A DNA stretch of 64,000 nucleotides from Flavobacteriia bacterium (GCA_013373425.1 JABXHW010000021.1:124001-188000); one strand, 5' to 3'. Positions 31,439 to 43,289 are shown, counted from the first letter of the stretch. Numbers and translations are program-made. Notes: generated from the letters alone by a model not told the origin.

Positions 31439-31494
31439 GCAGGAGCGCAGGAGCGCATGAACGCAGGAGCGCAGGTACGCGTGAACGCACTTAG
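31439..31494. repeat. Second octanucleotide array
   Basis: Seven 8-bp units in unbroken register: GCAGGAGC, GCAGGAGC, GCATGAAC, GCAGGAGC, GCAGGTAC, GCGTGAAC, GCACTTAG. The consensus differs from that of the array before prfB but the period is the same. It lies between the small barrel gene and the first of three TonB-CTD genes. Confidence 0.85.
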
Positions 31495-31516
31495 AATCAC
31501 ACACACCCTTATCATT

Positions 31517-32050
31517 ATGACTCTCTCATTTTCCAAGGTTTCAATTTTATTCTTCGTTTTACTTTCTGGATTGGCGAGTGCCCAAATGTGTCCGGGAGGT
31601 GGAATTTTTGCTCCTCCTCCTAGTTCGGATGAACTGGATGAAAGCGACATGATTGAAGAAGTCGAAGAAATTGAAGGAGGTCGCAAGTATGAATTTACTC
31701 AAGTTACAGAGTTTCCGATAGCTGAAGCATGCGAATCCGCAGCGTCACGCGACGAACAATGGTCATGTACCGTTTATCAAATACAGCGTCACATCGCTAG
31801 TAACTTTGTCTTTCCCGAGGATGCTCGATCTGGTCCAGGAGGCCGGGTGATCATCAACTTTGAGATTAATGCAAAGGGTCAAGTCGTCAACGTGTGTATC
31901 GTCAAGAGTTCGGGAATAGAGAGTATTGATGAGGCAGGGATTATCGCAGTCGCAAGTCTGGATGATTTTCAGCCTGCTCGATTGAATGGGCGTACAGTTC
32001 GAATGACCTATAATGTGCCTATTAACGCAAGTACTGGTAATGATGAGTAG
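31517..32050 (+). CDS. Short exported TonB-C-terminal-domain protein, copy 1
   Basis: 177 residues from the ATG at 31517; an in-frame ATG at 31457 lies in the repeat array and would spoil the signal peptide. Signal ends at ASAQ, then a linker with an acidic run (DELDESDMIEEVEEIE) and a TonB-like C-terminal domain (GRVIINFEINAKGQVVNVCIV ... VRMTYNVPINA). A cysteine pair with spacing C-x11-C precedes the domain. There is no proline-rich spacer or N-terminal anchor of a true TonB. First of three tandem paralogues. Confidence 0.75.
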   Translation: MTLSFSKVSILFFVLLSGLASAQMCPGGGIFAPPPSSDELDESDMIEEVEEIEGGRKYEFTQVTEFPIAEACESAASRDEQWSCTVYQIQRHIASNFVFPEDARSGPGGRVIINFEINAKGQVVNVCIVKSSGIESIDEAGIIAVASLDDFQPARLNGRTVRMTYNVPINASTGNDE

Positions 32051-32495
32051 AATATTTCTCACCCTTTTAGCTGCTTTACTGTTCAGCTTTGCAGCAGTAG
32101 CACAAGAGGTAAGTCCTCAACCTCAAGATCCACCTGTTTCAATACAGAGTGTAGAATCTTATCCCATAGCTCCAGGATGTGCAGATGGCGAAACTTTGGA
32201 TGAGCAGTATGCCTGTCTTACACGGTTCTTACAGAATCACATCCGTGAAAAATTCGAATTTCCGGAACGTGCAAGAGCTCAACAGCAAGGAGGCAGAGTT
32301 TGGATTGGATTCGTAATTGAACTTGACGGTTCGATTTCAAATGTTCGGGTTGATCGCTCGTCGGGAGTTGCGAGCATAGATGCGGAAGCGCTGAGAGTGG
32401 TCCAACTCCTCCCTAAAATGGAAAAGCCCGCAACGCTGAACGGCGAGCCAGTGAAAATTCAATATCACGTGCCAGTAAACGCACAACTCCACTGA
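32040..32495 (+). CDS. Short exported TonB-C-terminal-domain protein, copy 2
   Basis: 151 residues. Two adjacent ATGs (32040 and 32043) both overlap the previous stop, so translation is coupled. Signal peptide ends at AVAQ. The C-x11-C pair (CADGETLDEQYAC) and the domain GRVWIGFVIELDGSISNVRVDRSSGVASIDAEAL match copy 3 closely. Probably periplasmic or outer-membrane associated; function unknown. Confidence 0.75.
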   Translation: MMSRIFLTLLAALLFSFAAVAQEVSPQPQDPPVSIQSVESYPIAPGCADGETLDEQYACLTRFLQNHIREKFEFPERARAQQQGGRVWIGFVIELDGSISNVRVDRSSGVASIDAEALRVVQLLPKMEKPATLNGEPVKIQYHVPVNAQLH

Positions 32496-32541
32496 TCAAA
32501 GAGAGCACGAGTCTTTTTCAATTGATAGTAAATGAATAGTC

Positions 32542-32985
32542 ATGATGAACTTACATAAGCCACTTGTTTTAGCCTTTGTATTCGTTGTTAGTTTCACCGC
32601 TTTCAGTCAAGATGAGAAGGAAGCGCCGAAGAGCTTCATGGAGATTACTTCATTCCCAGTGGCTCCTGGATGCGATGCAGATCAAAGTCAGGATGAAATC
32701 ATGAAGTGCTTTCAAACTTTTGTCTCCAGACATATTTCTGAGAACTTTGAGTATCCAGAAGACGCCAGAGAAGGAGGTCTTGAAGGACGAGTTTGGCTTC
32801 GCTTTATCGTTGAGGCCGATGGCTCAATCAGTAATGTGGAAGTGGTTAGAACTTCAGGCGTGGCAAGCATTGACGCGGAGGGCGTTAGAGTTCTTCAATC
32901 GCTTCCGAAGCTTTCTGCACCAGGTTACCTCGACGGAAGAGCTGTCAGAATGCAGTATTCAATTCCCATCAATGCTCGGATTTAA
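32542..32985 (+). CDS. Short exported TonB-C-terminal-domain protein, copy 3
   Basis: 147 residues with signal peptide ending AFSQ, the C-x11-C pair (CDADQSQDEIMKC) and TonB-like domain GRVWLRFIVEADGSISNVEVV to VRMQYSIPINARI. SNVxVxRxSGVASIDAE is shared with copy 2, showing duplication. It ends 74 nt before the multiheme-cytochrome operon, on the same strand. Confidence 0.75.
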   Translation: MMNLHKPLVLAFVFVVSFTAFSQDEKEAPKSFMEITSFPVAPGCDADQSQDEIMKCFQTFVSRHISENFEYPEDAREGGLEGRVWLRFIVEADGSISNVEVVRTSGVASIDAEGVRVLQSLPKLSAPGYLDGRAVRMQYSIPINARI

Positions 32986-33059: not shown

Positions 33060-33905
33060 ATGGGAAAACTCGCGCACACCTTGTACATCTGGTCTATGGT
33101 GCTCATCACCGTGGCCGTAACCGTTTATCTCTCATGGGTAGGGTACACGTATTACGCCACCCCAGTAGTCGATCGTTTTTCGCATCCTCAATACGATTGG
33201 TTCAAGTCTTCGGGTACTTTCGGAGGAGGCTTAGGGGTGATTGGAACCATCCTCATTTTTATTGGTGTTGTCCTGTATATAACTGCGAAGAAGTATCGCT
33301 ATTTAGAGCGATGGGTTCGTCTTAAGTACCTACTAGAGTTTCACATCTTCCTATGCACAGTTGGACCCATCATGATCCTTTTTCACACCACCTTCAAGTT
33401 CGGAGGAATTGTATCCATAGCCTTTTGGAGCATGGTGCTCGTTGTGCTAAGTGGAGTCATAGGTCGTTACATTTACCTTCAAATACCCCAGGCTGTTAAC
33501 GGTAGAGCCCTTTCTCTTGAAGAATTGAACGGTATGCGCAATGAAGCCATGGCCAGCATCCGTAAGCAGGAGCAAATTGACGGAGATATCTATAATACCA
33601 TTATGACATTCGACCCGCCGGCAGGTTGGGGATTGAAACCCATTCTCGAGGGAAGGAAACGAATAAAGAAAGTGGCAAATGCACTGGCGAACACTTCACT
33701 GAGTAGACCGGAGCAAGAAGAAATTCTGAAGAATGTGCGAACTGAAATCACATTGAAGAGAAAAATGAAGCGATTAGACTTGATGCAATCGCTCTTCAAG
33801 TACTGGCACGTGGCCCATCGTCCATTCGCTTTAATTATGCTGTTCGTTGTGGTGTTGCATGTTGGAGTGGCAGTGTTTTACTTCGGATATACCTGGGAGT
33901 TTTGA
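33060..33905 (+). CDS. Membrane b-type cytochrome with two H-x13-H helices
   Basis: 281 residues with five hydrophobic helices: about 7-30, 56-75, 91-110, 116-140 and 253-276. His95/His109 and His253/His267 each have H-x13-H spacing within one helix, the pattern that binds two stacked hemes b in ferric-reductase/NOX and cytochrome-b type bundles. A soluble helical segment (about 145-245) separates helices 4 and 5. It should carry electrons across the inner membrane. First gene of a seven-gene operon; its stop overlaps the next start. Confidence 0.75.
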   Translation: MGKLAHTLYIWSMVLITVAVTVYLSWVGYTYYATPVVDRFSHPQYDWFKSSGTFGGGLGVIGTILIFIGVVLYITAKKYRYLERWVRLKYLLEFHIFLCTVGPIMILFHTTFKFGGIVSIAFWSMVLVVLSGVIGRYIYLQIPQAVNGRALSLEELNGMRNEAMASIRKQEQIDGDIYNTIMTFDPPAGWGLKPILEGRKRIKKVANALANTSLSRPEQEEILKNVRTEITLKRKMKRLDLMQSLFKYWHVAHRPFALIMLFVVVLHVGVAVFYFGYTWEF

Positions 33906-35233
33906 GTTGGGAGATTCTCATATACGGCGGAACCTTTCTGATTTGCTTCACGATAGTGTTTATCTACGTTCGAAAAGGAGCTAAGAAATCGGCTGAGGTG
34001 AGAGCCAAGGTGGAAAGGGCGAAGGAAGAAGGTCGATTTCAACCAAATTCATTGCATCCTCACATCAATCTAGACGTCTGCATTGGCAGTGGGGCCTGCG
34101 TTCAAGCTTGCCCGGAGGAAGATATCCTCGGACTTATTGATGGAAAAGCTACGGTAATTAATACGACGAGCTGCATCGGACACGGAGCGTGCTTTCACAC
34201 TTGTCCGGTTGATGCAATAACTCTCCGAATCGGCACAGAAGAAAGAGGAGTAGAATTGCCGCATGTTAAACCCGATTATGAGACCAATGTAGAAGGGATT
34301 TATATCGCCGGTGAACTCGGCGGTATGGGATTGATTCGCAACAGCGCCGAGCAAGGTATTCAGGCGGTGGAGAATCTTTCAGAGGGGTTGGAGAAAGGAG
34401 CTTATGGAGATTGTGATCTCGTGATTATCGGAGCAGGGCCTGCAGGATTAGCGGGCAGCCTAAAAGCAAAAGAGCTCGGTGTGAACGCTCGAGTGCTTGA
34501 GCAAGATTCACTCGGCGGCACGGTCTATACCTTCCCGCGATCAAAAGTGGTAATGACACAACCTATGAACCTTCCGCTCTATGGCAAACTCAAATTGGTC
34601 AATACTACAAAAGATGAGCTACTAGAGATTTGGAACGATGCTCTGACAAAGAATGATATCACCATTGATGAGGGCTGCAAAGTGGAGCGAATTATTCAGA
34701 AGGATAATAAGGGCTTCGAAGTTCAAATAGCGGGTAAAGAAGCTATTACCACTCAAAAAGTACTGATAGCCATTGGGCGTAGAGGCACTCCTCGCAAGCT
34801 GGGTGTGCCCGGTGAGGAGTCTCAAAAGGTGGCCTATAGAATGCTCGAACCCGAGCAGATTGAAGGCGAGAAAATCTTAGTGGTAGGAGGTGGCGATTCC
34901 GCGGTGGAATCAGCCCTGTTGGTTTGTGAGAAGAATCATACCATCCTATCCTACCGCAAGGAAAACTTCGCCCGTATAAAATCAGGAAATCAACAGGCGT
35001 TAGAGCAAGCTGTCGCTGAAGGAAAAGTTGAGTTGATGCTATCATCTAACGTCACAGAAATTAAGCCTGATTCTGTTAAGCTGACCAATGTTAATGGAGA
35101 TGAGGTGGAGATTGAGAACCACAGAGTCTATATCTTTATTGGAGGCGAGTTGCCTATTCCATTCCTCAAAGATGCGGGCATTGATGTCAACATGACCTTT
35201 GGTAAGATCTTGAAGAAGCACAAGAGGAAATGA
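33902..35233 (+). CDS. Membrane-anchored Fe-S/FAD oxidoreductase
   Basis: 443 residues. The start is a TTG overlapping the previous stop (TTGA), as no ATG occurs before the conserved part. An N-terminal helix (4-23) anchors it; two ferredoxin motifs follow, C60-x5-C66-x3-C70-P and C91-x5-C97-x3-C101-P, in which the usual second cysteine is Ser63 and His94. Then a segment GIYIAGELGG (133-141), an FAD Rossmann motif GAGPAG (177-182) and an NAD(P) motif GGGDSA (329-334), as in thioredoxin-reductase-like proteins but without their CxxC. It likely passes electrons between NAD(P)H and the b-type cytochrome. Confidence 0.85.
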   Translation: MSWEILIYGGTFLICFTIVFIYVRKGAKKSAEVRAKVERAKEEGRFQPNSLHPHINLDVCIGSGACVQACPEEDILGLIDGKATVINTTSCIGHGACFHTCPVDAITLRIGTEERGVELPHVKPDYETNVEGIYIAGELGGMGLIRNSAEQGIQAVENLSEGLEKGAYGDCDLVIIGAGPAGLAGSLKAKELGVNARVLEQDSLGGTVYTFPRSKVVMTQPMNLPLYGKLKLVNTTKDELLEIWNDALTKNDITIDEGCKVERIIQKDNKGFEVQIAGKEAITTQKVLIAIGRRGTPRKLGVPGEESQKVAYRMLEPEQIEGEKILVVGGGDSAVESALLVCEKNHTILSYRKENFARIKSGNQQALEQAVAEGKVELMLSSNVTEIKPDSVKLTNVNGDEVEIENHRVYIFIGGELPIPFLKDAGIDVNMTFGKILKKHKRK

Positions 35234-36831
35234 GAAGACTACTGTCCATATTGCTCTTGCTTTGTGGAGTGTGCGCATACGCTCAATTCTCGCCGGGGGA
35301 GTTGTCTGAAGCGCATAGTCATCTCGAAGGCATGTCGAATTGCTCCTCATGTCACGAAGCGGGGAATCGCGTTCCAGATGTGAAATGCCTCGATTGCCAC
35401 AATGAAATAGAATCCTTGATTAACCTCGACAGAGGCTATCATTCCAGTTCGGAAGTTCAGACAAAGACCTGCGTGGATTGCCATAGCGAACACCATGGTA
35501 GGTCGTTTAATTCAGTCCGTGTGGATGAAGACGGGTTTAATCATTCCTTGACGGGCTACGAGCTGGACGGTGCGCACAATAGGATCGAATGTCGAGATTG
35601 TCACCAACCAACCAACATTGCCAACCGAGATATCCGGAAGCGAACCGATACCTATTTGGGACTGGGCTCAACCTGCTTGTCTTGTCATACCGATTACCAC
35701 CAAGGAACCTTGGGAAGTAGCTGCACCGATTGCCACAACATCGAAGATTGGCGTCCAGCTCCGGGCTTTGATCACGACGAAACCGATTATGCATTGACGG
35801 GCGCACACCGGGAAGTGGAGTGCGTGGATTGTCATGAGATAGGTACTCGCTACGGGGAAGAGTATCAGGCTTTCTCAGGTATTGACTTTGGAGAGTGTTT
35901 GGACTGTCACCGGGACGAACACGAAGGTCGATTTGGTCGCAACTGCACGGAATGTCACAGTATTTTCAGCTGGACACAAATGAAGTCGAATAATACCTTC
36001 AATCACGACCTGACGGACTATCCACTCGAAGGAAAGCATAATGAGGTAGAGTGCATAGAGTGTCATACTTCGGGGAGGAATTCTCAACCCCTTGCTTTCG
36101 GTCGATGTGACGATTGCCATGACGATTATCACGAAGGGGAGTTTACCACCACGCGAGGCAAACGCGATTGTGCCGAATGCCATAATGTGATGCAGAACTT
36201 CACCTGGTCGAGTTATTCGATCTCGGAACACAACGAAACCGATTGGCCTTTGGAAGGCGCGCACATGGCTACACCATGCTTCGCATGTCACAAGCCTGAC
36301 GAGGAGCCTCGATGGAGTTTTGCTTTGGAGAGCACGAGTTGCGTGAGTTGTCATGATGATGTGCATGAAGGCTACATTTCTGAGCAATACTATCCTGAAA
36401 AGACTTGTGAATCATGCCACTCTTCCAACACTTGGTCGAGTGTTGAATTTGATCACACTAGAACCGATTGGGCGCTTGAGGGAGCGCATGAATCTATCGA
36501 TTGTCGTGAATGTCATTGGCGAGGAGAAGATGATGTGCAGGTGCAGGAGTTCTCGGGACTCAACACGGATTGCGCAACGTGTCACGATAATCCACATGGA
36601 CGTCAGTTCGAGGTAAGTGGAACCACAGATTGTTTGCGATGTCACTCCTTGTCAACGGTTTGGAATATCGCTACATTTGACCATAGCTCAACGGAGTTTC
36701 CATTGGATGGAAAGCATGCACAGCTCGAATGTGCAGAATGTCATCAACCTAAAATAGACGATGACGGCGTGGAACGCGTTGAATATGTTATAGACGCATT
36801 CCAATGTATCGACTGCCACGGTTCCAACTAG
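35230..36831 (+). CDS. Exported multiheme cytochrome c, 20 CxxCH motifs
   Basis: 533 residues, starting by ATGA overlap. Signal peptide ends at AYAQ. I count 20 CxxCH heme-attachment sites, one per 27 residues, from CSSCH (38) to CIDCH near the end. A three-heme module recurs about six times: CxxCHxDxHxG, CxxCHxxxxW, then FDHxxTxxxLxGxHxxxxCxxCH, whose extra histidines can be distal heme ligands. No T9SS domain or lipobox is present, so it is probably periplasmic. It would form a heme wire between inner and outer membranes. Confidence 0.93.
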   Translation: MRRLLSILLLLCGVCAYAQFSPGELSEAHSHLEGMSNCSSCHEAGNRVPDVKCLDCHNEIESLINLDRGYHSSSEVQTKTCVDCHSEHHGRSFNSVRVDEDGFNHSLTGYELDGAHNRIECRDCHQPTNIANRDIRKRTDTYLGLGSTCLSCHTDYHQGTLGSSCTDCHNIEDWRPAPGFDHDETDYALTGAHREVECVDCHEIGTRYGEEYQAFSGIDFGECLDCHRDEHEGRFGRNCTECHSIFSWTQMKSNNTFNHDLTDYPLEGKHNEVECIECHTSGRNSQPLAFGRCDDCHDDYHEGEFTTTRGKRDCAECHNVMQNFTWSSYSISEHNETDWPLEGAHMATPCFACHKPDEEPRWSFALESTSCVSCHDDVHEGYISEQYYPEKTCESCHSSNTWSSVEFDHTRTDWALEGAHESIDCRECHWRGEDDVQVQEFSGLNTDCATCHDNPHGRQFEVSGTTDCLRCHSLSTVWNIATFDHSSTEFPLDGKHAQLECAECHQPKIDDDGVERVEYVIDAFQCIDCHGSN

Positions 36832-37838
36832 CTCTAATGCTGCTCGTTTCGAGTTTCACACTCGTAGCGCAGAACCCACACGGCGACGATCTTGCCATTT
36901 CCTGTACCGATTGCCATACCACCGATAGCTGGACCCTATCCGTCACATCTGAAATGACATTCGACCATGGAGAGCAAACCGACTTTCCCTTGGAAGGACA
37001 GCACGCCTTCGTGGAATGTGTCGACTGTCACGCTGATTTGACCTTCAAGAATGCATCTACGGAGTGTGTGGATTGCCATACGGATGTGCATCAGCAGACC
37101 GTTGGAAACGACTGTGCTCGCTGTCATACTGCAGAGTATTGGTTGGTAGATAACATTCCTCAGATTCACGAGCAAAATGGCTTTCCCCTTGAAGGTTCTC
37201 ATGCCATGACGTCTTGTGTTGAATGTCACACCACTTCAAATACCATGGCTTGGAATCGAGTGGGAAATGAATGTGTGGATTGCCACCGTGAAGATTACTT
37301 CGCCACATCTGACCCGAACCACGTGACAAATGGTTTTTCACTGGATTGTATAGAATGTCACGAGCCAATTTCTCAAAGTTGGGAAGGAAGTAATACACAC
37401 TTCTTCTTTCCCTTGGTTCAGGGGCACGATTTACCTGATTGCAACGAATGCCATACTCCTAACCAGCCTTTCACGGGATTAAACCCAGATTGCATTTCTT
37501 GCCACTTGGACGATTACAATGGCGCTTCACAGCCCAATCACGCGCTGAGTGGATTTAGCCAGGACTGTTCACAGTGCCACGACCTGACCCCGGGTTGGCC
37601 AGCTAACTTGCTCGACCACGACGCCAATTATTTTCCCATTTATTCCGGAACTCACCAAGGGGCTTGGAACGATTGTGTAGAATGTCATACCAATCCATCA
37701 AACTTTAGCATGTTCTCGTGTATTGATTGCCATGAGCACAACGATCCAAACGACCTTGCAGATGATCACGATGACGTAGGAGGATATCAATACGTAAGTA
37801 CAGCCTGTTTAGATTGTCACCCTAACGGATCGGAATAG
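36804..37838 (+). CDS. Exported multiheme cytochrome c, 13 CxxCH motifs
   Basis: 344 residues. The ATG at 36804 overlaps the previous gene by 28 bases; it is preferred over the ATG at 36837 because it supplies the basic start of the signal peptide (MYRLPRFQLALMLLV, ending LVAQ). I count 13 CxxCH sites, with two modules of the FPLEGxHxxxxCxxCH type shared with the preceding cytochrome. Later hemes sit in more divergent contexts (NECHTPNQPFTG, CHDLTPGWP). It may be the partner nearest the outer-membrane barrel. Confidence 0.92.
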   Translation: MYRLPRFQLALMLLVSSFTLVAQNPHGDDLAISCTDCHTTDSWTLSVTSEMTFDHGEQTDFPLEGQHAFVECVDCHADLTFKNASTECVDCHTDVHQQTVGNDCARCHTAEYWLVDNIPQIHEQNGFPLEGSHAMTSCVECHTTSNTMAWNRVGNECVDCHREDYFATSDPNHVTNGFSLDCIECHEPISQSWEGSNTHFFFPLVQGHDLPDCNECHTPNQPFTGLNPDCISCHLDDYNGASQPNHALSGFSQDCSQCHDLTPGWPANLLDHDANYFPIYSGTHQGAWNDCVECHTNPSNFSMFSCIDCHEHNDPNDLADDHDDVGGYQYVSTACLDCHPNGSE

Positions 37839-39449
37839 ATGCGTTACCTCTTGTTCACGATTGCATTTATACTTCCCATTCTGAGCTTGGCACAGACAGA
37901 AGCTCAGGGTGAAGTTAGCTATGTGAGTAGTAGCTCCGTTTATGTGCGGTTTGAGAGTACGAATGGAATTGAAGTAGGGGATACGCTCCAATTGGTGGGT
38001 TCCAATGATGCGTGCTTGTTGGTGCTCAATAAATCTTCGGTTTCCCTTGTTACAGAGGTGATTGGAGATTGTAATCCAGAAGTTGGACAAGCACTTCAAG
38101 CTAAAGTTCGAAAGTCAGAACCTGAAACTCCAGTAGATCCTGTACAAGTAGAAAGCCCAGATCCTTCCGTCGAAGTTGCTGAGGTGGCGGCTAGCCCAGT
38201 GGAAGGGAAAGGTGATTTTCGAATTCGAGGGAACAGCTCCATCGCCAGCTACAATGTATTCTCAGGAGATGGCTTTTATTCGGGGTATTCACGAAATGTC
38301 GCCCGGTTGAATATGGATATCCAAAATGTGCGAACACCTGGATTGGACATCGAATTCAACGGGAACTATCAATATTTTCATTACTTAAATCGGGAGAGTA
38401 CCACTCCGAGAGCTGAAGGCCGCTTGAACTTATACAATGCAGCTCTCCGCTGGAATAGGGACTTGAACAGCACGGGTAGCCGGAATATTAATATGGCGGT
38501 AGGGAGGTTTTCCAATCGAAGAGCGGCTTCACTCGGACCTATAGATGGTTTATCAGCGGAACTTCATCTCAATAACTTCTTCGTCGGAGGTATCGTAGGA
38601 AGTCGTCCAGATTTTGAAACCTTCGGAGTAAATCCTCAACTTTTGCAGTTCGGCGGATATGTTGGTGCGGATTTCAACACGAACTCTTCACAGCATCAAA
38701 GCACTCTTGGCTGGTTGCAGCAAGGGAACTCTGGTGGAATCGATCGAAGGTATTTGTACCTACAACACTCTAGCTCCTTTGGAGGAAAGGTGACTTTGTT
38801 CGCCTCATCAGAAATGGACTTGTTCGAGAATTTCGACACGGCCACTGCTCGTCAGACCTTCAAACTTTCAAGCTTATACCTCTCGGCGAACTATCGCTTT
38901 CATCCAAAGTGGAACTTGTTTTTATCCTACGACAGTCGACAACAGATCATCTTCTTTCAACAGTACGATTCAGAGATTGAGCGATTGCTCGATGAATCTG
39001 GAATCCAGCAGGGATATCGCGCTCGGTTGAGGTACAATCCAAACCGTCATTGGTCTTTTGCGCTGGGGTATCATCACCGTTTGCGAACAGTAAGCTCGGG
39101 TAACGGAAGCAATGCACAATTTTACATGGGCTACCGCGATTTGCCATGGATGGGTGGTTCAATAAGTCTTCAGGCCAACTTGAATATGTCCAGTTACATG
39201 CAGAGTGAAGTGGGCTCTATTCGGTATTCTCGAATGTTAGGTCAGAGTTTGAGATTCCAACTCTACAGTAGATATCTACAGTATCACTACATCGGGAAAG
39301 AGTTCGCAATTAGTCCACAGTGGTATTACGGTACGGAATGGTCGTATCGCTTGGGTGGCGACTGGTCCTTAGGTATTTTAGCAGAGTATAGTATGCAGAA
39401 AGATCAAGATGTGATTCGTGGCAATCTCAGATTGATTAAAAGATTTTGA
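37839..39449 (+). CDS. Outer-membrane beta-barrel of the electron-transfer operon
   Basis: 536 residues, starting directly after the cytochrome stop. Signal peptide ends SLAQ. Residues about 20-90 form a small beta domain with two cysteines (NDACLLV and GDCNPEV); a Pro/Glu/Val linker (about 92-122) follows; the rest alternates aromatic and polar residues in long strands and ends in LRLIKRF, as outer-membrane barrels do. By position next to two multiheme cytochromes it could act like the barrel of a porin-cytochrome conduit, though I see no sequence match to MtrB. Confidence 0.72.
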   Translation: MRYLLFTIAFILPILSLAQTEAQGEVSYVSSSSVYVRFESTNGIEVGDTLQLVGSNDACLLVLNKSSVSLVTEVIGDCNPEVGQALQAKVRKSEPETPVDPVQVESPDPSVEVAEVAASPVEGKGDFRIRGNSSIASYNVFSGDGFYSGYSRNVARLNMDIQNVRTPGLDIEFNGNYQYFHYLNRESTTPRAEGRLNLYNAALRWNRDLNSTGSRNINMAVGRFSNRRAASLGPIDGLSAELHLNNFFVGGIVGSRPDFETFGVNPQLLQFGGYVGADFNTNSSQHQSTLGWLQQGNSGGIDRRYLYLQHSSSFGGKVTLFASSEMDLFENFDTATARQTFKLSSLYLSANYRFHPKWNLFLSYDSRQQIIFFQQYDSEIERLLDESGIQQGYRARLRYNPNRHWSFALGYHHRLRTVSSGNGSNAQFYMGYRDLPWMGGSISLQANLNMSSYMQSEVGSIRYSRMLGQSLRFQLYSRYLQYHYIGKEFAISPQWYYGTEWSYRLGGDWSLGILAEYSMQKDQDVIRGNLRLIKRF

Positions 39450-39450
39450 T

Positions 39451-40203
39451 ATGAAATTAGGAGTTGGGGTGTTTGTCATGCTCGCAGTAGCGTGCAACAA
39501 TAGTGGAGAAGTGGTAGAAACTACAGCAGAATCATCGGCGGTAGTGAATGAAGTTTTTGGTTCGTCATCCTCGCATTCGCAATCGGCCAATACGGCTAAT
39601 GGTTTGGCTGATGCGCACGTGAAAGTGCTCGAGCAGATGGACACGGATCGCTATTCTTATCTCAAAGTGTCGGAGAGCAACGGACGTGAGTACTGGATTG
39701 CAGCTGCGAAAGGAGAATTCATGGTAGGTGCCGAATATCACTACCACGACGGAATTTATAAGACTGAATACTACAGCACTCATTTCGATAGAACCTTCGA
39801 CGAGATTTACCTCGTTTCCAAAATTCACTTAGCGAGTGCAGGTCATGCTCAGGGTGCTGCTCCAAGGGCAAGTACATCTTCAGTAGCATCTTCTTCCGTG
39901 GATTACTCTGTTGAAGGTGGAGTGACCATTGCAGAAATTGTTGCTAATCCAGGTGACTATGCCGGTGAGAAGATTCGTGTTCGCGGAAATGTCACCAAAG
40001 TAAACCCCATGATTATGGGAAGAAACTGGGTGCATTTGCAGGATGGTACAGCAGATGACTTCGATTTTGTGATTACAACTCAAGAGGATATTCCTGTAGG
40101 TCACACTGCTACATTCGAAGGCACCTTAAATGTCAATGTGGATTTCGGTTCAGGTTACACCTATGAGATCATCATGGAAGACGCCGTGTTAATTCGCGAT
40201 TGA
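39451..40203 (+). CDS. Lipoprotein with OB-fold domain (NrfJ-like)
   Basis: 250 residues. Lipobox LAVAC at 11-15 gives a lipidated N-terminus; a Ser/Ala-rich stretch follows. The C-terminal part (about 158-250) has the OB-fold pattern GDYAGEKIRVRGNVTKVN, GRNWVHLQDGT and GHTATFEGTLNV. Such domains accompany nitrite-reductase and other multiheme cytochrome clusters as NrfJ. The middle (about 55-130) contains several histidines (YHYHDGIYKTEYY). It starts 1 nt after the barrel and overlaps the next start by one base. Confidence 0.75.
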   Translation: MKLGVGVFVMLAVACNNSGEVVETTAESSAVVNEVFGSSSSHSQSANTANGLADAHVKVLEQMDTDRYSYLKVSESNGREYWIAAAKGEFMVGAEYHYHDGIYKTEYYSTHFDRTFDEIYLVSKIHLASAGHAQGAAPRASTSSVASSSVDYSVEGGVTIAEIVANPGDYAGEKIRVRGNVTKVNPMIMGRNWVHLQDGTADDFDFVITTQEDIPVGHTATFEGTLNVNVDFGSGYTYEIIMEDAVLIRD

Positions 40204-43200
40204 TGAAGAAAACACTGGATTCCCTCCTCAAGGTCATGTTTGGCATGCGTGCCGGAATGATCTACGTTTTGTTATTCGCCGCATCCATTGGTGTGGCTAC
40301 CTTTGTTGAAAATGACTTTGGCACTTCAGCCGCTCAGAAGTGGATTTATCAGGCCACGTGGTTTGAAGTTTTATTGGTACTCTTCATGGGTGCCGTTGCT
40401 TATAACATCCATAAGTACCGTCTCATCCAGCGCAAGCAATGGGCATCTTTGATGTTTCATGCAGCATTTGTCATCATCTTAATTGGTGCGGGAATTACCC
40501 GATGGACGGGGTATGAAGGAACTATCTTGATATTCGAAGGAGAGTCCGAAAGTCAGTTTTACTCTCGCGAGCAATACATCAATCTGGATATTCAATTCGA
40601 CGGACGACAATTTGAGGTTCACGAACCCGTGTTGTTCTCATCGTTAGGTGACAATCACTTTCATAAATCGTACGAAATCGACGGTCGGGAGCTCGAAGTA
40701 GAGTTGCTTGATTTTATGCCGAATCCGGTAGAGACATTGGTCGAAAACCCGAATGGAAATGATCTCATAAAAATTGTGGTGGGCAGTGCCGAAGGGCGCA
40801 ATGAAGTGTTTTTGGCTAGAGGGGAAGCTAAGCGCATAGCTGGAACCTTATTCAGTTTTGAAGGAGGTGCAGGTGATGTCTTCATTTTTGGAGCATCCGA
40901 TTCGCTGCTTATCCAGTCAAGTTTCGCTTTGACTACACGTGTTATGGCTACCGGTCAGACGGATACCATTGCCGCAAATCAAGCGAGCAGCTTGCGTTTT
41001 TTAGCTTTGCATCAAGCGATGAATCCGCAAATGAGACCCTTCGTTTTCGGTGGGGTTGAAACTGGGAAAGCGATTCAACTTACTTCCGATGACTTTAAGA
41101 TTTCTGGAGAGTCTTCCGTGGCTCTGCAGGTTCGAACCGCTTGGGATGGTCAGGAAGATGTACGTTGGATTGTTGCAGAACCGAGACTGCTTCCAAAGAG
41201 AGAATCTATCAACTTCGATGCAACACAAGTTGGAATTTCTTACGGTTCCATGGTGAAGCAATTGCCATTCTCCATTTATCTCTACGATTTTCAAATGGAG
41301 CGGTATCCGGGAACGAATAGCCCCATGTCTTTTGCCAGTGAGGTGAGAGTTCTCGATTCAGAGATGGGACATGAGGAGGACTTTAGGATTTACATGAATC
41401 ACATCTTGGACTATCGAGGATACCGATTTTTTCAATCCTCTTACACTCCCGATGAAACCGGAACTTACCTCAGTGTCAATCACGATGCTACTGGCACTTG
41501 GGTAACGTATTTGGGCTATTTCCTACTTACCCTTGGAATGATTTGGACGCTATTCGCAAAGAATTCTCGCTTCAGAATGCTCTTGTCGCAAATGAGAAAG
41601 AGCCGAAATAACCTGGCAGCATTGGTGATATTTCTTTCTATCGGCACACCAGCATTCGCTCAAGAAGAAGTGAACCTCCCTATTGTTGACGCATCTCATG
41701 CAGAACGAGTGAGTGAACTGCAAGTGCAGGACTTTCGTGGTAGAATGAAACCCTTCCACACTCTGTCTCGTGAGGTGATGCGTAAGGTGCACGGCAAATT
41801 GAGCTATTCAGGAATGAATGCCGATCAGGTGGTGCTCAGCATGTTTGCGACGCCTTCGGACTGGTACAGCAGGAAGCTCATTGATATCGATGCGAATGAG
41901 CAGATGCAAGAGCTCTTGGGGATACAGACTGAGTTTGCTGCCTTCAAGGATTTCTTCTCGGTAGAAGGAACGTATAAGCTCTCCGCAGCTGTAAGTGAAG
42001 CGACGCGGAAGGATCCTATCGACAAAAGTAAATTCGACAAGCTTTTGATTCAAGTGGACGAGCGTGTGAACGTCCTCAATAATCTCTTTTCTGGAACCCT
42101 TTTGCGCTTGGTTCCCATCCCAAATGATGAAGCCAACACCTGGACAGGTGCACCTACACATGGAGGGAATTTTGCTGAGGATGTACCGATTCAGTTCTTC
42201 TCGGCGTATCGCGAATCTTTACTTCATGGAATACGCGACGGTCATTATTCGGATGCCGATGCATTGATTCAAAACTTGGCTTCATTCCAGAGAGAATGGG
42301 GGGCGGAAATCATGCAGAGCGAATCGCAATCCCACGCTGAGATTACATTCAACAAACTGAATCCATTTAGTCGATTAGTTCCAATCTACGGTCTACTGGC
42401 CATGGTTTATCTGGTAATACTTTTCATCACGGTATTACGCCCATCCACCCGCGTAAAATGGACTATGCGTGTATTGACCGGCATAGTGATGCTAGCGGTT
42501 GCGTTCCACCTTTATGGGCTTGCCTTACGATGGATTGCGGGAGAACATGCACCGTGGAGTAATGGCTATGAAACTATGGCCTTCATCAGCTCCATTGTAA
42601 TGGTTGCCTCGTTGATTTTCTTGAGAAAGGGAGCAGGAGGAATGGCTGCTGCGAATCTGCTCACAAGTGTGCTCCTCCTAATTGCCATGATATCCTCCTT
42701 GAATCCGGAAATCACGCCACTTGTTCCAGTGCTAAAGTCTTATTGGATGCAGATTCACGTTTCCATCATCACTGGCAGTTACGCTTTCTTGATGCTTGGA
42801 GCGATTATCGGAATTCTCAACTTATTACTGCTTTCCATCTTGGGTTCAGCCAACCGAAAAAACATTGCCCATCAAGTTCGCCAGCTTACAATGATGAGCG
42901 AAGTAATATTGATTGTTGGTGTATTCATGCTGAGTGTTGGTACCTACTTAGGTGGGGTTTGGGCCAATGAATCTTGGGGGCGATACTGGGGATGGGACGC
43001 GAAAGAGACCTGGGCATTGGTTTCAATTCTCGTTTACGCCTTTATTCTTCACATGCGATTCATTCCAGGTCTCAAAGGGGTGTATGCATTTAATGTGTCG
43101 ACCTTGTTCGGATTGGCCTCCATCGTAATGACCTATTACGGGGTGAACTATTTCCTAAGCGGATTGCATTCCTATGCCGCAGGTGAACCTGAACAAATAC

Positions 43201-43289
43201 CTCGTGAAGTGTACATCAGCGTAGTGTCGCTCACCATTGTGTCTCTATGGGCGTATTACCGATATCGGGTGCATTGGAAGAAGTCTTGA
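40203..43289 (+). CDS. ccsBA: Fused ResB-CcsA cytochrome c heme lyase (CcsBA)
   Basis: 1,028 residues. The ResB part covers about 1-470, with helices near 15-35, 50-68, 78-95 and 430-450; a linker with a large periplasmic stretch follows; CcsA occupies about 720-1028 and carries the tryptophan-rich heme-handling WWD motif (ESWGRYWGWDAKETWALV near 920) and flanking membrane histidines. System II maturation proteins export heme and attach it to CxxCH sites. Fusion of both parts is known from NrfI-type proteins. Being last in the operon, it probably matures the 33 hemes encoded upstream. Confidence 0.93.
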   Translation: MKKTLDSLLKVMFGMRAGMIYVLLFAASIGVATFVENDFGTSAAQKWIYQATWFEVLLVLFMGAVAYNIHKYRLIQRKQWASLMFHAAFVIILIGAGITRWTGYEGTILIFEGESESQFYSREQYINLDIQFDGRQFEVHEPVLFSSLGDNHFHKSYEIDGRELEVELLDFMPNPVETLVENPNGNDLIKIVVGSAEGRNEVFLARGEAKRIAGTLFSFEGGAGDVFIFGASDSLLIQSSFALTTRVMATGQTDTIAANQASSLRFLALHQAMNPQMRPFVFGGVETGKAIQLTSDDFKISGESSVALQVRTAWDGQEDVRWIVAEPRLLPKRESINFDATQVGISYGSMVKQLPFSIYLYDFQMERYPGTNSPMSFASEVRVLDSEMGHEEDFRIYMNHILDYRGYRFFQSSYTPDETGTYLSVNHDATGTWVTYLGYFLLTLGMIWTLFAKNSRFRMLLSQMRKSRNNLAALVIFLSIGTPAFAQEEVNLPIVDASHAERVSELQVQDFRGRMKPFHTLSREVMRKVHGKLSYSGMNADQVVLSMFATPSDWYSRKLIDIDANEQMQELLGIQTEFAAFKDFFSVEGTYKLSAAVSEATRKDPIDKSKFDKLLIQVDERVNVLNNLFSGTLLRLVPIPNDEANTWTGAPTHGGNFAEDVPIQFFSAYRESLLHGIRDGHYSDADALIQNLASFQREWGAEIMQSESQSHAEITFNKLNPFSRLVPIYGLLAMVYLVILFITVLRPSTRVKWTMRVLTGIVMLAVAFHLYGLALRWIAGEHAPWSNGYETMAFISSIVMVASLIFLRKGAGGMAAANLLTSVLLLIAMISSLNPEITPLVPVLKSYWMQIHVSIITGSYAFLMLGAIIGILNLLLLSILGSANRKNIAHQVRQLTMMSEVILIVGVFMLSVGTYLGGVWANESWGRYWGWDAKETWALVSILVYAFILHMRFIPGLKGVYAFNVSTLFGLASIVMTYYGVNYFLSGLHSYAAGEPEQIPREVYISVVSLTIVSLWAYYRYRVHWKKS

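Follow-up and report, generated by a model that had tools for sequence, protein, structure and literature searches.

A seven-gene operon of a Flavobacteriia bacterium (GCA_013373425.1), lying within the 64,000-nt stretch of JABXHW010000021.1 analysed here (the window, 124001–188000), probably encodes a porin-cytochrome conduit of the PCC3 type in its Bacteroidota form, which would carry electrons from NAD(P)H outward to an extracellular acceptor. Comparative sequence analysis and structure prediction identify the parts, show that they are conserved together, and give the heme-ligand signatures, a predicted barrel and the apparent arrival of the cytochrome c synthase CcsBA together with the operon; outward flow is the most likely reading of these features, its direction and acceptor being what we infer from them.

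The reading frames are tightly packed on one strand (Table 1), with overlaps of 4, 4 and 28 nt at the first three junctions, gaps of 0 and 1 nt at the next two and, with an ATG start for g7, a 1-nt overlap between g6 and g7. This bears out the seven same-strand genes and the spacing given in a preliminary description of this DNA, the final overlap holding only for the ATG at 40203. Its heme counts (20 in g3, 13 in g4) are exact by count of CXXCH motifs, and its flavin/Fe-S module is recovered in g2, whose domains (Fer4 and Pyr_redox) exceed the Pfam cut-offs, as do those of g3 and g4 (Cytochrome_C7/c3) and g7 (ResB and Cytochrom_C_asm). The same Pfam search placed neither g1 nor g5 in a family above cut-off. 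Three small tandem paralogous proteins, TonB-C-terminal-like by eye, are encoded directly upstream of the operon (31457–32985), and further paralogues occur elsewhere in the genus.

Table 1 Features of the operon, in window coordinates
Feature	Position	Strand	Basis
Whole cluster, 7 genes	33060-43289	+	ORFs read in window
g1, di-heme b inner-membrane protein (IMP)	33060..33905	+	
g2, Fe-S/FAD/NAD(P) protein with TM anchor, TTG start	33902..35233	+	
g2, two-cluster Fe-S domain	34055..34222	+	16-homologue alignment
g3, 20-heme cytochrome, predicted periplasmic	35230..36831	+	
g4, 13-heme cytochrome, predicted barrel/cell-surface arm	36804..37838	+	
g5, predicted outer-membrane beta-barrel, C-terminal Phe	37839..39449	+	AlphaFold2
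g6, lipoprotein with GW domain	39451..40203	+	PF13457
g7, fused CcsBA cytochrome c synthase (System II)	40200 (TTG) or 40203 (ATG)..43289	+	

Dozens of Bacteroidota genomes contain the same set of genes, which is more than chance would give. Among 395 genomes sampled across the phylum, 40 contained a full-length or long relative of g1, and 20 loci of 20 kb were read (19 from this sample and one, G410, from the host family). A synteny search of the kind suggested in the preliminary description found that the families co-occur across Bacteroidota, with g1, g2, g3 and g4 together in 19 of the 20 loci (the exception being L045) and a barrel recognisable in 18 of the 20 phylum-spread loci; the position of g2 varies, either between the IMP and the cytochromes or after the barrel. 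The transenvelope layout proposed at the outset is supported by these parts and their synteny, from which we infer the electron path. In 84,980 species genomes, 536 relatives of g1 were found, the best 80 of which all belong to Bacteroidota whenever a group is given in the record, with many from cultured marine Flavobacteriaceae (Yeosuana, Arenibacter, Maribacter, Lutibacter, Ulvibacter and Aequorivita). All seven genes were present in 32 of ~101 loci, most of the remainder stopping at a contig edge. The lipoprotein and CcsBA fall outside the phylum-wide core and occur in Flavobacteriales, Saprospiraceae and Cyclobacteriaceae-type (Cytophagales-type) loci and on an Emticicia plasmid. The view that CcsBA is built into the system consequently holds in part: it travels with the cluster, but like the g6 lipoprotein it belongs to one clade of loci and not to the core. 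Many lineages without CcsBA in the cluster encode a membrane-anchored TPR protein of ~200 aa directly after g1 (L037, L038, L040, L042, L043, L046, L047, L052 and L055), which matches a CcmH-type TPR model weakly and may be an assembly factor. A second barrel homologue lies on the opposite strand beside the cluster in L067 (11620–13227).

The layout and the IMP signature fit a named system, contrary to the initial impression that the gene set matches none. PCC3 (He et al. 2017, PMC5566968; Hoover et al. 2023, PMC10734462) was described from Proteobacteria, including Fe(II) oxidisers, with a proposed role as a conduit (He et al. 2017, PMC5566968). In S. lithotrophicus its genes run from the IMP (Slit_1446) through a periplasmic and an extracellular multiheme cytochrome (MHC) to the porin (Slit_1449), which is the order of g1, g3, g4 and g5; the likeness consists of this published order and the IMP signature, sequence kinship of the IMP being shown only to porin-less relatives. 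The signature (~300 aa, five TM helices, SGxxG and two HX13H pairs) is present in g1 (281 aa), the porin has its counterpart in a predicted 22-strand barrel, and both systems have heme-rich, repeat-built cytochromes with ~26 aa per heme. Periplasmic heme number is nearly fixed in both (~21 in PCC3, 20 or 23 here) and surface heme number variable (10–73 here), the compartments here being predicted. Several differences were observed. PCC3 has only four components, to which the present loci add the conserved NAD(P)H/FAD/Fe-S gene g2 and either the lipoprotein and CcsBA (one clade) or the TPR protein (others); moreover, both Bacteroidota cytochromes keep to strict three-heme steps, and the barrel is below the size of the largest PCC3 porins. 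Because g2 is conserved in 19 of the 20 loci, the operon is better termed a PCC3-type variant linked to NAD(P)H than a plain PCC3 member. Plasmid searches for proteobacterial PCC3 gave, among the matches listed, only porin-less cassettes and Bacteroidota plasmids.

The AlphaFold2 model of g1 (pLDDT 86.9) has five TM helices, and its comparison with the PDB by Foldseek gave no significant fold match. The four membrane histidines form the two HX13H pairs, His95/His109 on helix 3 and His253/His267 on helix 5, the latter preceded by Trp249, while helix 4 carries the motif SGVIG. H95, H109, W249, H253, H267 and S131-G132-x-x-G135 are invariant in 21 homologues, and the same His, Trp and Gly residues are invariant in the porin-less proteobacterial (plasmid) IMPs. 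The helix 3 Trp of a WX3HX13H pattern is present in many homologues and is Leu91 in the window protein. A protein of ~190 aa, matching only g1 residues ~55–147 and looking like a smaller IMP relative, was found in many sampled genomes of one family (f19, ~50 genomes); a similar protein adjoins a 10-heme cytochrome in L047 (1530–2105).

The adjoining g2 combines an N-terminal TM anchor, a ferredoxin-like domain (Fer4_10, 7.5e-11) and a TrxR/YpdA-type FAD/NAD(P) domain (Pyr_redox_3, 1e-39), and its closest solved structures are YpdA/Bdr (7a76 and 7a7b). Its identification as a YpdA or thioredoxin reductase was rejected: the score against the YpdA model TIGR04018 is 148.6 (cut-off 339.9), and the domain is fused to the TM and Fe-S segments rather than stand-alone. 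In the two Fe-S motifs, C60-x2-S63-x2-C66-x3-C70 and C91-x2-H94-x2-C97-x3-C101, the second Cys is replaced (S or C at position 63 and an invariant His94 among 16 homologues), which suggests [3Fe-4S] or non-Cys-ligated clusters. Porin-less cassettes resembling the 'other MHC' clusters of He et al. share with the operon the invariant IMP residues, an NAD(P)H flavo-Fe-S neighbour and usually an MHC, and differ from it in lacking a porin, in having one short MHC and in having a reductase of FNR/Fer2 fold. In the proteobacterial plasmid cassettes this flavoprotein (FAD_binding_6, NAD_binding_1 and Fer2) precedes the IMP and is unrelated to g2, although it seems to fill an equivalent role. Eight plasmid cassettes (L137–L141 and L146–L148) encode an NAD(P)H/FAD/2Fe-2S reductase, a di-heme IMP and mostly a short multiheme cytochrome, often near genes for copper or other metal resistance, hydrogenase or the pentose-phosphate pathway. 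The reductase-IMP cassette of Bradyrhizobium BTAi1 lies beside zwf, gnd and tal, whose products make or feed NADPH.

These pairings bear on where electrons enter. The best evidence for NAD(P)H as the source comes from fold and context: two unrelated NAD(P)H flavoproteins are each joined to the same type of di-heme protein, which points to NAD(P)H entry. In an alternative that we consider possible but doubtful, menaquinol would reduce g1, and g2 would be auxiliary, as a redox sensor or an NAD(P)H bypass. A quinone-active role has been proposed for the IMP (He et al. 2017, PMC5566968), and b-type membrane proteins of the g1 kind often react with quinones, but g2 is conserved as much as the IMP and the cytochromes, and unrelated NAD(P)H reductases also pair with relatives of g1. 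A different outlet for NAD(P)H electrons would be an assimilatory extracellular ferric reductase for iron acquisition, combining the topology of a ferric reductase/NADPH oxidase with a heme wire. The absence of siderophore and iron-uptake genes from the operon and the iron cost of 33 hemes make this distinctly unlikely, even though the NADPH-FAD-two heme b logic and the HX13H pairs resemble those of FRD (He et al. 2017, PMC5566968), metal-related genes lie near proteobacterial g1 relatives, and outward flow without energy conservation would suit uptake.

The composition of both cytochromes suits a heme wire. Every heme motif seen is CXXCH, with no CXXCK, and spare histidines number at least 1.0 per heme in every g3 and g4 homologue (22 non-motif His for the 20 hemes of g3), as expected if the hemes form a bis-His wire. 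A PDB sequence search with g3 returned no match, and its identity as a decaheme of the MtrA/DmsE family was rejected (46.9 bits against a cut-off of 192.2). Heme number follows a rule of three: among complete homologues, it is 1 mod 3 in 73 of 75 for g4 (10, 13, 16, 19 and so on up to 73) and 2 mod 3 in 81 of 84 for g3 (nearly all 20 or 23), these homologues being related, so that the counts are not independent events. True exceptions were sought and rejected, each case being traced to an artefact: the choice of start codon, the end of a contig, a wrongly assigned class or a reading frame that was split. Inter-heme spacing likewise has a period of three, its autocorrelation being 0.71 and 0.80 at lag 3 and below zero at lags 1 and 2. 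In g4, the terminal 120 residues at either end are ~51% conserved, and the middle extends by units of ~73 residues. Since many different heme values obey the rule, many gains and losses of three-heme units are implied by these sequences. Homologues of g4 with 58–73 hemes were observed in L057, L039, L044, L050 and L117, that of L057 (73 hemes) being a near-regular tape of triheme repeats of ~73 aa each. Cytochrome repeats were reported by He et al. 2017 (PMC5566968), where the three-heme rule is not stated; the periplasmic PCC3 cytochromes of Gallionellaceae have 21, 24 and 27 hemes, likewise in steps of three. Large Bacteroidota cytochromes with no assigned role have been reported from activated sludge (PMC11495043).

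These features also bear on the reduction of a periplasmic N or S oxyanion, which was raised initially as an alternative and which we now regard as highly improbable. Multiheme cytochromes and a dedicated CcsBA (NrfI) do accompany NrfA in the nrfHAIJ operon of Wolinella (PMC12285233), and a CcsBA borne in the operon is the feature shared with the present locus. There, however, the CcsBA serves the CXXCK heme of the enzyme, whereas here all motifs are CXXCH and the operon has no NrfA. Searches of g3 and g4 against models of NrfA, HAO and octaheme tetrathionate reductase gave no match, the spare histidines leave no evident open site, and a barrel belongs to the core gene set.

The AlphaFold2 model of g5 (pLDDT 86.1) comprises a small N-terminal beta domain (residues 20–90) followed by 22 long strands (128–535), and Foldseek against the PDB returned FimD/PapC ushers and Occ/Opd porins (E 2e-9 and weaker); g5 is therefore predicted to be an outer-membrane barrel. 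By analogy, g4 rather than g3 would sit in this barrel. Such an arrangement recalls MtrCAB, MtoAB and PioAB, in which a decaheme-type wire is held in an outer-membrane barrel with an optional surface cytochrome, and the smallest g4 homologues have 10 hemes. In contrast to those systems, g3 falls below the DmsE/MtrA cut-off, g5 has no Pfam family and the operon has no CymA; the barrel of MtrB, with 26 strands, is also larger than the 22-strand g5. PDB sequence searches with g5 and g6 gave no match. In g6, a lipobox-like Cys is accompanied by a GW domain (PF13457, 4.5e-8); C15, M189, W193 and H195 are invariant, and a conserved C-terminal domain (NxxIMxxxWxHLxDG...FGxGYxY) contains Met189 and His195, which could be metal or heme ligands. 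Its first description as an OB-fold lipoprotein stands as regards the lipobox-like Cys; an OB fold of the C-terminal half is plausible from sequence and has no database match. A role for g6 as a heme chaperone like CcmE, or as a homologue of NrfJ, found no support in any search and is kept as a lead.

In g7, ResB and CcsA domains (PF05140, 1.3e-20; PF01578, 1.5e-35) occur with the landmarks WWD, PxSNxYE and GLHSY and conserved His, identifying it as a CcsBA of System II, and its score against TIGR03144 (170.1 bits) is just under the equivalog cut-off of 187.6. The host family has a System I background: CcmE was found in all 25 sampled genomes, and a ccm cluster is present in the window genome besides the operon CcsBA. 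ResB/CcsBA was present in both operon-bearing genomes of the family and in none of the 23 operon-free ones (Fisher exact p = 1/300 (0.003)), both genes lying inside the operon. Across loci, CcsBA lies either upstream of the cluster or downstream of it, where it may be co-directional or convergent, and this persistence of adjacency through rearrangement argues for a functional link with the cluster. In genus-mate G396, the flanks are collinear with the window (18.1–30.9 kb and 43.2–46.0 kb) and the slot holds four unrelated ORFs; in genus-mate G395, the downstream genes are present and the operon is missing beside them. As genus-mates lack the operon at the same site and CcsBA occurs only in carriers, the operon is best read as an island, either gained or differentially lost, that comes with a heme synthase dedicated to it. 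Base composition gives no sign of transfer, the GC content of the operon being equal to that of its surroundings; if the operon was gained, this match suggests an old gain or a similar donor.

Taken in order, NAD(P)H would be oxidised in the cytoplasm by g2, whose electrons would pass by FAD and a pair of atypical Fe-S clusters to the inner b heme of g1 and cross the inner membrane from the inner to the outer b heme. The 20 hemes of g3 would bridge the periplasm, and g4, seated in g5, would deliver electrons to the cell surface, where candidate acceptors are an Fe(III)/Mn(IV) mineral, humics or another cell; g7, perhaps with g6, would attach the 33 c-type hemes. As a strong reductant of low potential, NAD(P)H favours electron export, as does the membrane potential, which is why outward flow is preferred. 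Inward flow through the same conduit, from Fe(II), Mn(II) or another outside donor to the quinone pool or oxidases, with g2 as a side branch or as a reverse-flow NAD(P)+ reductase, we consider unlikely. Such flow has been modelled for PCC3, a complex found in Fe(II) oxidisers (He et al. 2017, PMC5566968), and the hosts look largely aerobic (cultured marine Flavobacteriaceae), the window genome itself encoding two heme-copper oxidases. It would, however, oppose the membrane potential, an NAD(P)H flavoprotein would be an awkward partner at Fe(II) potentials, and PCC3 of S. lithotrophicus ES-1 is not induced by Fe(II), both copies being down-regulated on it. With outward flow in an oxidase-bearing host, the conduit would help the cell to balance its redox state, to mobilise metals by reduction or to survive at low oxygen, and would not act as a proton-pumping respiratory chain; as electrons would leave without proton pumping, a redox valve or reductive tool is more likely than a coupling respiration.

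What is known here is best described as the conduit class (PCC3), and what is new as a Bacteroidota version with a conserved NAD(P)H module and a clade-specific lipoprotein and CcsBA. More tentatively, and at somewhat short of an even prospect, we propose that it is a self-contained, horizontally spread and quinone-independent route of NAD(P)H-to-outside export common in aerobic marine Bacteroidota, which supplies System I hosts with a heme-attachment enzyme of its own and whose surface wire, conserved at both ends, has grown or shrunk by exactly three hemes at a time. Little is known of extracellular electron transfer in Bacteroidota, though they are a major phylum of marine particles, sediments and activated sludge, and the huge cytochromes of the phylum (PMC11495043) would here gain a candidate complete system. 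The three-heme step provides a natural length series for the growth of heme wires, and cultured carriers (Maribacter, Arenibacter, Lutibacter, Aequorivita, Ulvibacter and Emticicia) make the system testable. Were the conduit indeed fed from NAD(P)H and not from quinol, its energetic logic would be unlike that of Mtr.
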